This document shows positions 44,135 to 49,119 of a stretch of DNA of 64,000 bases, piece after piece. Made by a program: the position numbers and the translations under genes. The notes under the pieces are model-generated. The model made no database searches, had not been told where the DNA came from, and saw only the letters and a program-made list of their open reading frames with translations. The DNA is from Nitrospira lenta (lineage in GTDB: Bacteria > Nitrospirota > Nitrospiria > Nitrospirales > Nitrospiraceae). The stretch lies in the NCBI RefSeq assembly GCF_900403705.1, contig NZ_OUNR01000012.1, positions 558,001-622,000 of the forward strand, read 5' to 3'. Within the stretch, counting starts at the first letter, position 1; each line of letters begins with the position of its first letter.

Positions 44135-44905
44135 TTAGGCGAGATCGGTTGATTTGGGCGAGTTCTGAAGGACCCAGGCCTTAATGCGTGATTGATCGGC
44201 TGGAGAGAGCCCGGTGAATTGCACATCGACACTGGGGCTTCCCGTCGTTCCGGCTCTTCCGGATTCGTAGACCGGGTCATAGTCCTCGAGGATCGTTCCA
44301 GTCACGGTCAGAGGAGCGGTGAGATCGGGAAGGGTGAATCTGAGGAAGACGCGCGTGCCGGGTAATAAAAGGGTTGCGGTCTGGACCATGGCCCCGACAT
44401 GGCTGAGCTGTACGATGATGGCTTGGTGTTGCGCGCCGGGTGAGTGGGAATCCATGACGCCAATCGTCGCGGGGACTCGAGTCTGACAGCGTTTAGGGGA
44501 TAAGACGAGATCCCGCGCAGTCAACACTCCGACCGGCTGTTCCTGTTTGGTGACAATGAGAATGGGGGCGCCCGAAGACATCATGAGAGTCGTGGCCTCA
44601 TCCGCCGCGCGGTCGTATTCAATAAAGTGCACCGGGTGAGACATGATTGCTCGAACTTCGATATCATCCGGGGCAAGGCCCAGCGCGACCACCTTTTTCA
44701 CAATGTCTGCAGGTGTCATCAAGCCGAAGTGCAGCTCCGTGTCTTTCACCAGCAGGCAGGGCATTTGTTCACGCTCTAAGAGCGTGGCCGCTTCGGTCAC
44801 GGAAATGTCACCGGGAATTTGAACGACACCTGGAGTCATCATGTGTGCGACCACTGTAAGTTTGGGGTTTGGCGTTTTCGGTTGTTGATCGTTTGGATGT
44901 ATCAT
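44135..44905 (-). CDS. CBS-pair protein with C-terminal PilZ-like domain
   Basis: A 256-aa protein: two CBS repeats (about residues 18-135; MMTPGVVQIPGDISVTEAA, IMSHPVHFIEYDRAADEA, GVLTARDLV), then a PilZ-like domain (RCQTRVPATI as RxxxR, QLSHVGAMV in place of DxSxxG, VDVQFTGLS). It could join adenine-nucleotide sensing (CBS) to cyclic-di-GMP binding (PilZ); the weakened second PilZ motif makes the latter uncertain. Confidence 0.85.
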   Translation of the reverse strand: MIHPNDQQPKTPNPKLTVVAHMMTPGVVQIPGDISVTEAATLLEREQMPCLLVKDTELHFGLMTPADIVKKVVALGLAPDDIEVRAIMSHPVHFIEYDRAADEATTLMMSSGAPILIVTKQEQPVGVLTARDLVLSPKRCQTRVPATIGVMDSHSPGAQHQAIIVQLSHVGAMVQTATLLLPGTRVFLRFTLPDLTAPLTVTGTILEDYDPVYESGRAGTTGSPSVDVQFTGLSPADQSRIKAWVLQNSPKSTDLA

Positions 44906-45084
44906 CGCATCGCCAGGGTGTTCAGGGTGACCGGTGCGTATCCTGGCTGCAGCGGTGTATGGGAAGTATAGCAGACGAATGCGAGTTTCCCTGTCTCCGC
45001 CAAAGCCTTGTCAGACAACAGTTTATCGGCATACACTGAGTCTGATTGATGTTGGGGATGGTGCCGGAGTGGAAGGGTGGGAGG

Positions 45085-46584
45085 ATGACCCTGTCGCGTG
45101 ATGTGTGTCATGATTTTCAAGGCCGAGTGGACCGGATCCCGGTTCACGGGCTTGGGCTGTCGGTGGATGTCTATTCACCAGACCTTCATAGCTTGCTCGC
45201 CGATCTGACCAGCCGTCAAGTCCTTCCGATGTATTTGGAGGTGTTTCATGCGACCTCCAGTGCGCTGGCCGCGGTTCGTGATCAGACGAATTTGCCACTT
45301 CCCTATCATGGAGAAGGGCTCTGGGTGACGCAACCGGGGGCTGGGAATGATCCGTTGTTTCAAGAAGAAGCGCGGATGTTAGCTTCCAACCTTTCTTTGC
45401 TTCGGAGCGCCTGGTCGAATCATGAATGTGCGACGAAGCATATCGCCGGGTATTCGTTCGGGACCTATCTCCCGCCGTTGTACACGACCGCGAGCGCGGA
45501 CATTGTGGCTAAGAACATCAATATGGTTCAGGCGATCTTTGATCAATCAGCTGCGCTGCCGGGCGGCGGCTCTCCGCTCTTTCTGCTGGAGATGCCGCCA
45601 TTGACATTTTTTGTCGCCGGGACCCTTTCGATTCCAGCCTACTTTCGTTGCGTCACCGAGCAAGCCGCCTGTGGGCTGGTGTTGGATGTCGGGCATCTAT
45701 GGACCGTCTATCGCTATTCTGGAGCCTGGCGGACTCAGTCCCTCATGCAATTCGTCGATGACTTCCTGCGCGAGTTTCCGGTCGAGCGGGTCGTGGAGAT
45801 TCATGTCGCGGGGCTGGCCGTTCACGAGTCTCTGGTCGGCGAGGCGGGTATCGCGAAGAGTGCGGACCCGAATCTGCTTCCGCGATGGACGGATGCCCAT
45901 GCCGCGCCGATTCCCTCGGTGTTGTTCGAGATGTTGGATCAGATTCTTCGGTGCGGGCGGTTGGAGCAATTGCGTGGGATGGCGCTCGAAGTCGATACGA
46001 AGCCCAACGGTCTCATCGCAGACGAACTGGCCTGGTTTTTAGAACGATATAAACAGGTGTTCGATCAACCTGTGTTGCAAGGTTCGGTCGCCGGTGTATC
46101 TTCCTCCCTGCCGGTCCACGCACGGTTCTCGACAGATAGCGGCGTAGTATCGAAGACCGAGTCTCTGGCTGAGGCCTATGAAGCGTATGCGCAGATTGTA
46201 TCGGGCCGGGCCGAGCCGGTCGGACCGAATTGGATGGCGGCAACGGCCTGTGCCGAGGATCTTGACTGGTATCGAACGAAGTACCTTCCCTATGAAATTC
46301 TCCACTGGGGCGGCGATGTCGAAGCGATGTTCCCTGAAACCTGTCGGGAATTGGCTGGTCGGCAAATCGTCACGGACAGTTTTGTGTCCTATTGGTTTCA
46401 CCGGCCGCATCCGGTGACTCGGTCCTATGATTTTTTTGACGTGAAGATCGATCGGTTCGTGGAGTTTATCAGTGAGAACGCTTCGGAGCTGACACTGCTG
46501 GTACAACGGGAAGCCACTGAATTGCGCCTGGCCTATCAGGCTGCCAACGAGGCGTCTTCGCAGTCGACGGGTGTGCACCGATGA
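45085..46584 (+). CDS. DUF692/MNIO-like protein with extra C-terminal domain
   Basis: A 499-aa protein (ATG at 45085 after GGAAGGG; frame opens at 45046). Residues about 20-330 follow the DUF692 TIM-barrel pattern, with likely metal ligands in PYHGEGLW, WSNHECATKHI, LLEMPPLTFF, LVLDVGHLW, VVEIHVAGLAVHES, TDAHAAPIPS and GMALEVDTKP. MNIO enzymes of this family use several iron ions to modify Cys in peptides, as MbnB does. A C-terminal region of about 160 residues (YEAYAQIVSG, YLPYEILHWGG, YWFHRPHPVTRSYDFF) is not assigned. No precursor peptide was found nearby. It overlaps the Dus gene by four bases. Confidence 0.75.
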   Translation: MTLSRDVCHDFQGRVDRIPVHGLGLSVDVYSPDLHSLLADLTSRQVLPMYLEVFHATSSALAAVRDQTNLPLPYHGEGLWVTQPGAGNDPLFQEEARMLASNLSLLRSAWSNHECATKHIAGYSFGTYLPPLYTTASADIVAKNINMVQAIFDQSAALPGGGSPLFLLEMPPLTFFVAGTLSIPAYFRCVTEQAACGLVLDVGHLWTVYRYSGAWRTQSLMQFVDDFLREFPVERVVEIHVAGLAVHESLVGEAGIAKSADPNLLPRWTDAHAAPIPSVLFEMLDQILRCGRLEQLRGMALEVDTKPNGLIADELAWFLERYKQVFDQPVLQGSVAGVSSSLPVHARFSTDSGVVSKTESLAEAYEAYAQIVSGRAEPVGPNWMAATACAEDLDWYRTKYLPYEILHWGGDVEAMFPETCRELAGRQIVTDSFVSYWFHRPHPVTRSYDFFDVKIDRFVEFISENASELTLLVQREATELRLAYQAANEASSQSTGVHR

Positions 46585-47765
46585 GTTTCTGGTCGACATT
46601 GCCGCGTCCGATCATGGGCCTCTCTCCGATGGATGGAGTGACGGATGCGACGTTTCGTCGAGTGATTGCCCAGCACGGCTTGCCGGATGTGACCTTTACC
46701 GAGTTCACGCACGTGCATGATGTGTGTCGGGGGCCGGAGTTTTTGCTGAACACGCTGATCTATAGTGAATTGGAACGGCCGGTCGTCGCACAGTTGTATG
46801 GCAAGGATCCGGCGTTGTTTTACCAGGCCACGCATGCGGCCTGTGAGTTAGGGTTTGACGGGATCGATATTAATATGGGGTGTCCGTCGAAGAACGTCGC
46901 CTCATCCGGATCGGGGGCCGGCCTGATTAAGACTCCTGAGGTGGCCCATGCCATTATGCAGGCAACGCGTCGTGCGATTCAGGATTGGGCGAACGGGCAG
47001 ACGTTGGAGCAGGTCGGATTTAAGCCGGCCAGGATTGCGGCGATTCAGGCGATGAATGTTGGGCGTCAAGGGGCGGCCACGGTGCCGCGGCGCGAGCTGC
47101 CGCTGTCAGTGAAGACTCGGCTGGGATACGATTCCGTGATTGTAGAAGACTGGGTGTCGCATCTGATTCAAGAAAAGCCTGTGGCGATCACGCTGCACGG
47201 GCGCACGCTCCAGCAAATGTACCGCGGCGAAGCGGATTGGTCGGCGATTGCCAGGGCCGTCGAGTTAGCCCGAGGGACCGGCATCTTGATATTGGGGAAC
47301 GGCGATGTGCAAAGCCTCAGTGAGGTGGTAAGCCGTGTCCACTCCACGCAGGTGGACGGAGTCCTGGTCGGACGAGCCGTGCTTGGAGCCCCGTGGTTTT
47401 TTCACGCCAAGGAGCAGGCTCGGACGTTGGCGAAGGCGGTCGCGTCCGGCGCTCACGTCGAAACCTTGCCGATAGAGCTTGCCGCGCGCTTCGCGCTGAT
47501 GCTCGACCACGCGCGGCAGTTTCAGGCGACCTGCGGCCCGGGACAATTTCATCGCATGCGGAAACATTTGGGATGGTATTGCAAAGGCTTCCCCCATGCG
47601 GCGGCGTTGCGCGGCCAGATGTTCCGTGTGTCATCCGCGGAGGATGTGGAGGCCATGATCGCCCGCTATCAGGCCAATCAGATCGTTGATAGTCCGGCCA
47701 CCGATGGCGTGTCCGGCGATGATCAGTCGAATGAGACCCAGGCCCTTGTCTCGCGATGCAGTTAA
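46581..47765 (+). CDS. dus: tRNA-dihydrouridine synthase
   Basis: FMN enzyme (394 aa) reducing uridine in tRNA. Motifs: GLSPMDGVTDATFRRV, QLYGKDPALFYQA, INMGCPSKNVASSGSGAGL (catalytic Cys), TLHGRTLQQMYRGEADW, GNGDVQS and VGRAVLGAPWFF. An insert of about 30 residues follows the catalytic region (DWANGQTLEQVGF). Subtype not settled. The start overlaps the DUF692-like gene (ATGA) and its end overlaps maf by ten bases. Confidence 0.92.
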   Translation: MSFWSTLPRPIMGLSPMDGVTDATFRRVIAQHGLPDVTFTEFTHVHDVCRGPEFLLNTLIYSELERPVVAQLYGKDPALFYQATHAACELGFDGIDINMGCPSKNVASSGSGAGLIKTPEVAHAIMQATRRAIQDWANGQTLEQVGFKPARIAAIQAMNVGRQGAATVPRRELPLSVKTRLGYDSVIVEDWVSHLIQEKPVAITLHGRTLQQMYRGEADWSAIARAVELARGTGILILGNGDVQSLSEVVSRVHSTQVDGVLVGRAVLGAPWFFHAKEQARTLAKAVASGAHVETLPIELAARFALMLDHARQFQATCGPGQFHRMRKHLGWYCKGFPHAAALRGQMFRVSSAEDVEAMIARYQANQIVDSPATDGVSGDDQSNETQALVSRCS

Positions 47766-48391
47766 TTCTCGCCTCGACCTCTCCCCGCCGCCGCGAACTC
47801 CTCGCGCTGCTCGGTCTTCCCTTTGAGATTGTTGCTCCAGATTTTGAAGAAGTGCCTCAGCCGGGATGGAGTCCGAGGCAACAGGTCGAGCATTTTGCGC
47901 GTGAAAAGGCCCGGTCCATTGCGACTACGCGATCGGCTGCTTTGGTACTCGGCAGCGATACCGCAATTGAACTGGACGGACAGATGCTGGGCAAGCCGGT
48001 GGATCTGGCCGATGCGCGTGCGATGCTGACGAGCTTGGCGGGGCGGCCGCATTCTGTCCATACGGCGGTGGCCCTCTGTCGGCAGACCCCTCATCATGAA
48101 GCCGTCGCGATCGAGACGGCCACGGTGCAGATGAACGCCTACGACGAAGCCGCCATCGAGCGATACCTGGCGACTCAAGAGCCGATGGGGAAAGCCGGCG
48201 CCTATTCCATTCAGGGCATGGGTGGGGAGTTCATCGAGACGATCTGCGGCGATTTTCTTGGCATCGTCGGGTTGCCGTTGCGTAAGGTGGCGACCTTACT
48301 TGCCGATACTGGCGTCCCTGTGCCCGTCGATATCGAGGCCCTCTATCGGGCGAAGCCCTATCCAAACTGGGCGCGGTTTTCGCGCGATTGA
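47756..48391 (+). CDS. maf: Maf nucleotide pyrophosphatase
   Basis: Maf/YhdE-type house-cleaning enzyme (211 aa) that removes non-canonical or modified nucleoside triphosphates. LILASTSPRRRELLALLG, SDTAIELDGQMLGKP and GKAGAYSIQGMGGEFIE are typical. Third gene of the overlapping operon. Confidence 0.93.
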   Translation: MQLILASTSPRRRELLALLGLPFEIVAPDFEEVPQPGWSPRQQVEHFAREKARSIATTRSAALVLGSDTAIELDGQMLGKPVDLADARAMLTSLAGRPHSVHTAVALCRQTPHHEAVAIETATVQMNAYDEAAIERYLATQEPMGKAGAYSIQGMGGEFIETICGDFLGIVGLPLRKVATLLADTGVPVPVDIEALYRAKPYPNWARFSRD

Positions 48392-48456
48392 AATGCCCCG
48401 GCGCTTCCCCTACAATACATCATTCTTTTCTTGGCTTTATCTTCAGGGAGGCGGTT

Positions 48457-49119
48457 ATGCAGAGCAGTACCCATCGGCGTCAAGGAATGGTGGCGATTGC
48501 GAGTCTCTTGGGAATTCTGTCGCTCGTCGGACCACCGGCAGCGTCAGCCATTGATGTGAAGCTGTCCGTAGATGACGCGCAGAAGGCTCTGGAAGCCGGC
48601 CGTATTCCGATGGACAAAGCCAATTCTCCTGAAGACGTCAAGAAGGTCCTGCAGCAAGCGTCCTTGGCCACCCGGGTCGGGTCCGATCCTGAGAAAGATC
48701 CCTGCGGTGCGAGCGCCATCCTCCGTACGAAGCGATTCCGGCTCGAAGCTTTCGGGCGCCAGGAAGCGGCGGAATCCAAGAAGCAGAAGAAAGAGATCCG
48801 CATGCCGGATGAGTTCATCAAGAAAGTCGTCGACATGCCGAACATGGAAGTGGAAGTGCAACTTTGCGGGGACGACGAATACTTTGCCGAAGGCGCGCAG
48901 GTTGCGTTTCAGCAAGGGAACAAGAATATCAAGGCCATTGATGTGAGCCCTGCGGAAAAGGGCCGTAAAAACGATGGGCAGGGCCCCGCGTTCCGATCGC
49001 GATTTACCGCACGGTTCGCCTACGATAGTTTCGATCCGAACGGGAAGACGAAGATCATCGTGTTCTTCCCGGACGGGAAGACCAGCGAATTCGACGCGGA
49101 CTTTTCCAAAGTGCGATAA
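48457..49119 (+). CDS. exported hypothetical protein
   Basis: Not recognised. 220 aa from the ATG at 48457 (GGGAGG six bases upstream; open frame from 48388). Signal peptide GMVAIASLLGILSLVGPP, cut near ASA-ID. The mature part has a helical start, a Lys-rich stretch (ESKKQKKEIRM) and a beta-rich end (FDPNGKTKIIVFFPDGKTS). Two Cys (DPCGAS, QLCGDD) may form a disulfide. It follows maf by 65 bases. Confidence 0.68.
   Translation: MQSSTHRRQGMVAIASLLGILSLVGPPAASAIDVKLSVDDAQKALEAGRIPMDKANSPEDVKKVLQQASLATRVGSDPEKDPCGASAILRTKRFRLEAFGRQEAAESKKQKKEIRMPDEFIKKVVDMPNMEVEVQLCGDDEYFAEGAQVAFQQGNKNIKAIDVSPAEKGRKNDGQGPAFRSRFTARFAYDSFDPNGKTKIIVFFPDGKTSEFDADFSKVR

Follow-up and report, generated by a model that had tools for sequence, protein, structure and literature searches.

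A single-chain DUF692/MNIO protein with two altered metal-ligand positions and a helical C-terminal domain is a core feature of Nitrospira and its family

The locus and the encoded protein

The window, by which we mean the whole 64,000-nt stretch of Nitrospira lenta DNA that was analysed, carries a gene for a 499-aa protein of the MNIO (DUF692) family, followed on the same strand by genes for a tRNA-dihydrouridine synthase (Dus), a Maf nucleotide pyrophosphatase and a conserved protein of 243 aa (Table 1). A preliminary description of this DNA had reported an ATGA overlap between the first gene and Dus, with Maf behind, and we found both: the MNIO stop and the Dus start share ATGA at 46581–46584, and the Dus and Maf frames overlap by 10 nt (47756–47765). 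The MNIO start at 45085 was not singled out by any well-spaced ribosome site, and the frame is open upstream to a TTG at 45046, which would give 512 aa; two ATG codons, 45049 and 45058, lie in between. Dus is a single gene in the source genome, matched by its profile in two pieces that lie in the same frame; the approximately 36 residues between them (about 135–170) form an insertion relative to PF01207, and the protein fell below the NCBIfam DusB cut-off. A gene for a CBS-pair protein with a C-terminal PilZ domain (44135–44905) lies divergent from the MNIO gene.

Table 1. Positions of the MNIO gene, the parts of its product and the genes that follow it in the window
Feature	Position	Strand	Basis
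MNIO (DUF692) single-chain protein, 499 aa	45085..46584	+	PF05114 match, AlphaFold2 model, PDB matches
TIM barrel, residues 1–328	45085..46068	+	VIA-align to MNIO structures; nine ligand positions
Low-confidence linker, residues ~329–353	46069..46143	+	pLDDT <50 at 330–353
Helical C-terminal domain, residues 354–488	46144..46548	+	All-helical in both models
tRNA-dihydrouridine synthase (Dus)	46581..47765	+	PF01207, 180 bits
Maf nucleotide pyrophosphatase	47756..48391	+	PF02545, 190 bits; TIGR00172 above cut-off
Conserved 243-aa protein, without Pfam match	48388..49119	+	Next in the same block

The Pfam model PF05114 matched residues 54–290 of the MNIO protein at 51.5 bits, about twice the cut-off of 25, and among the models of barrel families this was the only one matched above its cut-off. 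The gene is the sole PF05114 gene of the source genome (3.76 Mb, 99.98% complete), and the same cut-off was also passed by the distant members L039 and L036. None of the NCBIfam equivalog cut-offs for BufB, HvfB, ChrH and MbnB was reached (BufB, 34.8 bits against 310; HvfB, 24.8 against 360), and the score for ApyH, which is not a Cys-type MNIO, was likewise far below its cut-off (37.2 against 400). A PDB search with a profile built from 19 homologues returned the DUF692 protein 3bww (E = 3.6e-5), TglH (E = 0.0034) and, weakly, MbnB, and an hhalign comparison of the window family with a profile of five plasmid MNIOs gave a match at 99.6% (E = 1.5e-23).

We modelled the whole chain with AlphaFold2 on an alignment of 76 sequences, those of the window protein and of 75 of the 80 contig-scan loci, which gave a mean pLDDT of 86.6 and a pTM of 0.88. 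The barrel of the model ends near residue 328 and is followed by a linker of low confidence at 330–353 and by seven helices in 354–488; taken by itself, this pTM suggests a fixed arrangement of the barrel and the C-terminal domain. When the barrel model was compared with known structures using VIA-align, it fitted TglH (8hi7) at Z = 25.5 (2.8 Å over 267 residues), MbnB (7dz9) at Z = 24.3 (2.5 Å over 256 residues) and 3bww at Z = 20.6, the five MNIO proteins spanning Z 20.6–25.5, while the first non-MNIO barrel followed at Z = 16.9 and endonuclease IV and sugar isomerases stood at about 15–17. The earlier assignment to the DUF692/MNIO barrel is thus upheld, with TglH and MbnB as the best folds rather than a barrel of some other kind.

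Members of this MNIO family were found in 108 of the 295 genomes of the phylum. Within the window's own taxonomic family, 78 of the 79 listed genomes matched, made up of all 40 of the same genus, counting the source genome, and 38 of the 39 remaining ones, one of which (G286) was represented by a fragment only, and the single-chain architecture is a core trait of that family. Elsewhere in the order 7 of 19 listed genomes matched, one class relative (G270) gave a strong match, and the distant family f20 contributed 21 matching genomes at 30–41% identity, which is a count of matches without a denominator, 167 non-matching genomes of the phylum standing outside the listing. The near relatives recovered in the contig scan were Nitrospira, N. 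moscoviensis among them, and 80 of its 326 matches included none outside Nitrospira-like loci.

Metal-ligand positions and the C-terminal domain

The nine MNIO ligand positions are occupied in the window protein by H75, E114, E169, D201, H204, H240, D270, H272 and E302, and all nine residues are invariant in the 114 distinct members of at least 400 aa (the window's included), as are C115 and K118, with H113 present in 109 of the 114. For comparison, the cited part of PMC8888699 gives the iron ligands of VcMbnB as His55, His91, Glu135, Asp165, Asn168, His194, Asp209 (with His211) and Glu238, and that of PMC10880893 gives those of TglH as His71, His107, Glu151, Asp184, Asn187, His216, Asp229, His231 and Glu258. 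Two of the nine window residues differ in kind from those of MbnB and TglH, the second Fe1 His being replaced by Glu114 and the Fe3 Asn by His204. The DUF692 ligand pattern noticed in the preliminary description was therefore correct in that every position is filled and none has been lost in the 114 members, a loss that it had named as grounds for refutation, but the pattern is not the usual one at two of the nine positions.

The pairing of E114 with the ligand His was obtained both by MAFFT and in a HMMER alignment to TglH, the latter placing Glu114 on His107 and the next Cys on Cys108 within a low-scoring stretch, whereas hhalign with the five-plasmid-MNIO profile disagreed and set R107, not E114, on the ligand His. 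In the AlphaFold2 model, E114, E169, D201 and E302 each lie at strand ends.

We also compared the residues found at the two variable positions in other MNIOs. All ten bufferin-type MNIOs in the alignment, of which four are plasmid-borne and six come from Nitrospirota genomes, had His and Asn; one of the Nitrospirota proteins (L165) was scanned and scored 369.7 bits for BufB against the cut-off of 310. Asp and His were present in a Piscinibacter plasmid MNIO near carbamoyltransferase and TfuA-like genes, and again in a 533-aa Streptomyces plasmid MNIO (L137:2021-3622). The setting of the former resembles the std cluster, whose MNIO StdE bis-hydroxylates homocitrulline according to the cited part of PMC13174530. 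The Piscinibacter plasmid MNIO (L182), from a betaproteobacterium, also has a DUF6445 gene nearby, and the Streptomyces protein has a long C-terminal extension of its own and adjoins genes for an acyl-protein synthase, an acyl-CoA reductase and an MBL-fold protein.

The ligand pattern of the window protein, with Glu in place of Asp, equals that of the Phe hydroxylase PbsC, for which the cited part of PMC12257519 gives the authors' AlphaFold3-predicted ligands as His97, Asp133, Glu178, Asp213, His216, His247, Asp260, His262 and Glu290. Only in the window MNIO family did we observe Glu as the second Fe1 residue, and the cited portions of the MNIO ligand accounts contain no description of it. From a small sample (the window family, L132, L137 and PbsC), we infer that an acidic/His pair may mark hydroxylating MNIOs; because the ligand set equals that predicted for PbsC, the Glu114/His204 combination appears to favour C–H hydroxylation over Cys heterocycle formation. 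The preliminary description had assumed a Cys substrate, and a ligand set matching the one predicted for a Phe hydroxylase leaves that assumption unsupported.

Behind the barrel, the roughly 160 residues previously left unassigned correspond to the linker and helices described above, and Pfam found no family in the window's own C-terminal domain. Modelled alone, this domain gave a pLDDT of 80.9 and a pTM of 0.71 and was again all helical with no strands; an RRE requires a three-stranded sheet and three helices (cited part of PMC11117315), and the domain, lacking a sheet, is therefore not an RRE. Four of its residues, G410, F416, D449 and K454, are invariant in all 114 members.

By eye, the helices succeed one another as in DUF2063: YR and FP motifs are present, as is a Pro-rich turn, and the final helix ends in AY..A. 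The DUF2063 model PF09836 matched none of 68 C-terminal domains, even at an E-value of 10, and Pfam over the same 68 gave no more than 11 matches, which fell into five stray families. An hhalign comparison of 90 C-terminal with 27 DUF2063 sequences gave a borderline score of 18.0 (P = 0.026), against 9.5 and 10.3 for reversed controls; none of 100 column shuffles reached 18.0 (best 17.9), and three of 56 unrelated families scored at least 18, over just 13–16 columns. The match covers 50 columns and is colinear to 122 when extension is forced, and a circular-shift control carried no information, since a local match of 50 columns persists under every shift. An earlier hhalign run, with 68 against only 4 sequences, had produced no match. 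Using the C-terminal domain model, we obtained no Foldseek match at E < 0.001 and a best VIA score of Z = 5.1 to an unrelated chain, with NGO1945 (3dee), TglI and MbnC absent among the matches listed for these searches. A PDB profile search with the domain yielded chance matches only, tblastn against plasmids nothing convincing, and viral contigs no match. The structural comparison with MbnC and DUF2063 that had been proposed earlier returned an all-helical domain with no Foldseek relative and with MbnC not among the matches listed, while the profile match to DUF2063 was borderline; a partner domain of DUF2063 type that has diverged is one possible identity for it.

In the distant genome G270, separate ORFs that overlap at TTGA encode the barrel and the C-terminal part, the split falling at the linker, although a linker frameshift or an assembly error would look identical. 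The preliminary description had suggested that the C-terminal part replaces the separate partner protein. This is plausible because an engineered HvfB–HvfC fusion is active (cited part of PMC13419390), a single natural DUF692–DUF2063 fusion was noted in 2009 (cited part of PMC2954202) and G270 has the split ORFs, and the source genome contains no DUF2063 partner gene (PF09836); Pfam, Foldseek and hhalign leave homology to such a partner unproven.

Proposed reaction and competing explanations

We propose, with a probability of about one half, that the window gene encodes a single-chain multinuclear non-haem iron oxygenase, most likely a C–H hydroxylase of a peptide or protein encoded elsewhere. 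The barrel would activate O2 at two or three bound irons, with H75/E114/E169, D201/H240/E302 and H204/D270/H272 as their ligands. The helical domain, flexibly linked and predicted to pack on the barrel, would probably take over the function of the separate partner by keeping the iron centre in its active state and contributing to substrate binding. The most likely reaction would be hydroxylation of a C–H bond, the target being a peptide or protein from another locus of the genome, because the ligands are of the PbsC type and not of the type found in Cys-modifying MNIOs.

An alternative that we consider unlikely, though one with precedent, is an ordinary RiPP enzyme acting on a small precursor, secreted or cytosolic and with or without Cys, that is encoded at an unlinked site. 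The characterised MNIOs act on RiPP precursors in the cited parts of the papers, and many bufferin precursors lie away from any MNIO gene (cited part of PMC12452194). The C-terminal domain, however, lacks an RRE-like sheet, and the source genome contains neither PF10048 nor the double EGKCG motif, a result that is limited to known precursor types. Furthermore, this is a core gene that sits in differing neighbourhoods, and among the MNIO neighbours called at 70 aa or longer in 16 loci there was no gene, small or otherwise, common to the clades. It is over these same searches, covering neighbours of at least 70 aa, PF10048 and the double EGKCG motif, that the earlier statement that no precursor could be found holds. 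A canonical bufferin-type system was rejected, given the lack of PF09836, PF10048 and the double EGKCG motif and the missed NCBIfam cut-offs.

A DUF2063 gene was present in 21 of the 295 phylum genomes. In six loci examined it lay directly behind a second, standard MNIO, the one scanned being above the BufB cut-off; four loci were inspected further, and each has a Cys-containing ORF immediately upstream. These MNIO–DUF2063 loci of Nitrospirota are an accessory bufferin-like cluster that is missing from the source genome. A 2025 MNIO survey describes MovX with a winged helix, MNIO–nitroreductase fusions and two partner types, and its main text, as cited here, contains neither "Nitrospir-" nor "dihydrouridine" (PMC12452194). 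In the open-access literature, a scope outside which most subscription papers lie, we recognised no paper on the Nitrospira single-chain MNIO.

It is improbable, in our judgement, that the protein is a non-oxidative metal enzyme, such as a hydrolase or isomerase that uses Zn or Mn. With His204, the third site (His, Asp, His) is similar to the one that binds zinc in endonuclease IV, and the barrel fold is common to that enzyme and to sugar isomerases, but the MNIO structures score well above those barrels (Z 20.6–25.5 against about 15–17), and no barrel model other than that of the MNIOs was matched above its cut-off.

The gene order invites a further explanation, in which the MNIO would act on tRNA or the translation machinery together with Dus, and we see little prospect of this being correct. 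Dus directly follows the MNIO gene in 117 of the 118 own-family loci, a set that includes some genomes present in two collections, and the remaining locus ends at a contig end. At all 77 distinct own-family junctions the gap, measured to the start codon nearest the MNIO stop, is at most 17 nt (−4 in 32, +1 in 32 and ≤17 nt in 13), and in L049 and L125 Dus and Maf have been retained despite rearrangement of the genes upstream of the MNIO gene. However, the block from a rhomboid gene through the 243-aa gene is usually intact in the own family, the 243-aa gene adjoining Maf in most of the loci that extend far enough, and synteny of this whole block explains the MNIO–Dus overlap. In addition, Dus adjoins the MNIO gene in none of the 13 loci from other families (131 loci in all). 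The neighbours identified there are, in f2, a metallo-beta-lactamase gene and a GltD-like gene (glutamate synthase small subunit), in f20, genes for CheZ, TPR proteins and type II secretion and, in G270, siroheme and SPFH genes. One Nitrospira genome (L073) carries the rhomboid–DHH–LOG genes twice in tandem upstream of the MNIO gene.

Because the Dus–Maf link is confined to the own family, it tells little about the substrate, and Dus and Maf were rejected as substrate guides, being neighbours within one family only. Conservation of the Dus neighbourhood, proposed earlier as a check, is thus near-complete in the own family and absent from the 13 loci of other families. The preliminary description had read the operon as a sign of a housekeeping substrate; this argument is weakened, Dus and Maf being limited to one family and lying within a larger conserved block, and a non-RiPP role has better support in the core distribution of the gene and in the lack of a linked precursor among neighbours called at 70 aa or longer. 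Finally, a regulatory or pseudo-enzyme role, in which the barrel would bind a target without catalysis as the existing MNIO-like PesX does, is highly improbable, since PesX is without iron-binding residues (cited part of PMC13060819) and in the window MNIO all of them are invariant (114/114).

Significance and comparison with known systems

The proposal of a hydroxylating oxygenase can be extended, tentatively, to an MNIO outside the RiPP world, that is, a single-chain, partner-independent, Glu-ligand oxygenase that would belong to the core genes of Nitrospirota that oxidise nitrite and, probably, iron, and would hydroxylate a conserved cellular protein. To our knowledge, no other MNIO serves basic physiology instead of a dedicated precursor peptide, and this one, if the extension is correct, would be the first. 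MNIOs perform hard oxidations, and what the partner protein and the third iron contribute is still debated; a natural one-chain MNIO with altered ligands and no leader-binding RRE fold could provide a stoichiometric test system for both questions. Nitrospira are major nitrite oxidisers, and the near-universal presence of the gene in this genus suggests an undescribed oxidative modification within their normal physiology. More generally, a sequence rule contrasting His/Asn with Asp or Glu/His may separate Cys-oxidising MNIOs from hydroxylases.

TglH and MbnB are the best fold matches to the window MNIO and have seven of the nine ligand residues in common with it, but they differ in their His and Asn ligands, their separate partners TglI and MbnC, and their known precursors. 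PbsC, which carries out Phe ortho-hydroxylation in a biphenomycin-type system, is similar in having an acidic second Fe1 residue and His at Fe3, but that residue is Asp rather than Glu, and the cited part of PMC12257519 describes a separate RRE-containing partner, PbsD, and precursor peptides, PbsA. The BufB–BufC and HvfB–HvfC pairs and the HvfBC fusion resemble the window MNIO in the order of an MNIO followed by a partner, here a partner-like domain; for HvfB–HvfC, the partner is required for the mixed-valent diiron state (cited part of PMC13419390). In contrast to HvfBC, the fusion described here is natural, and its partner-like domain is unrecognisable as DUF2063 and is without the RRE half. 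The fusion noted in 2009 likewise has DUF692 at the N-terminus with a partner-type domain behind it, although, as far as its cited description goes, the DUF2063 part is recognised by Pfam there and not here. The cited descriptions of MovX and of PflD, an MNIO–nitroreductase fusion that hydroxylates Asp (PMC12636437), also show an extra domain in one chain, this being a winged helix in MovX and a nitroreductase in PflD, whereas the helical domain of the window MNIO is of another kind.
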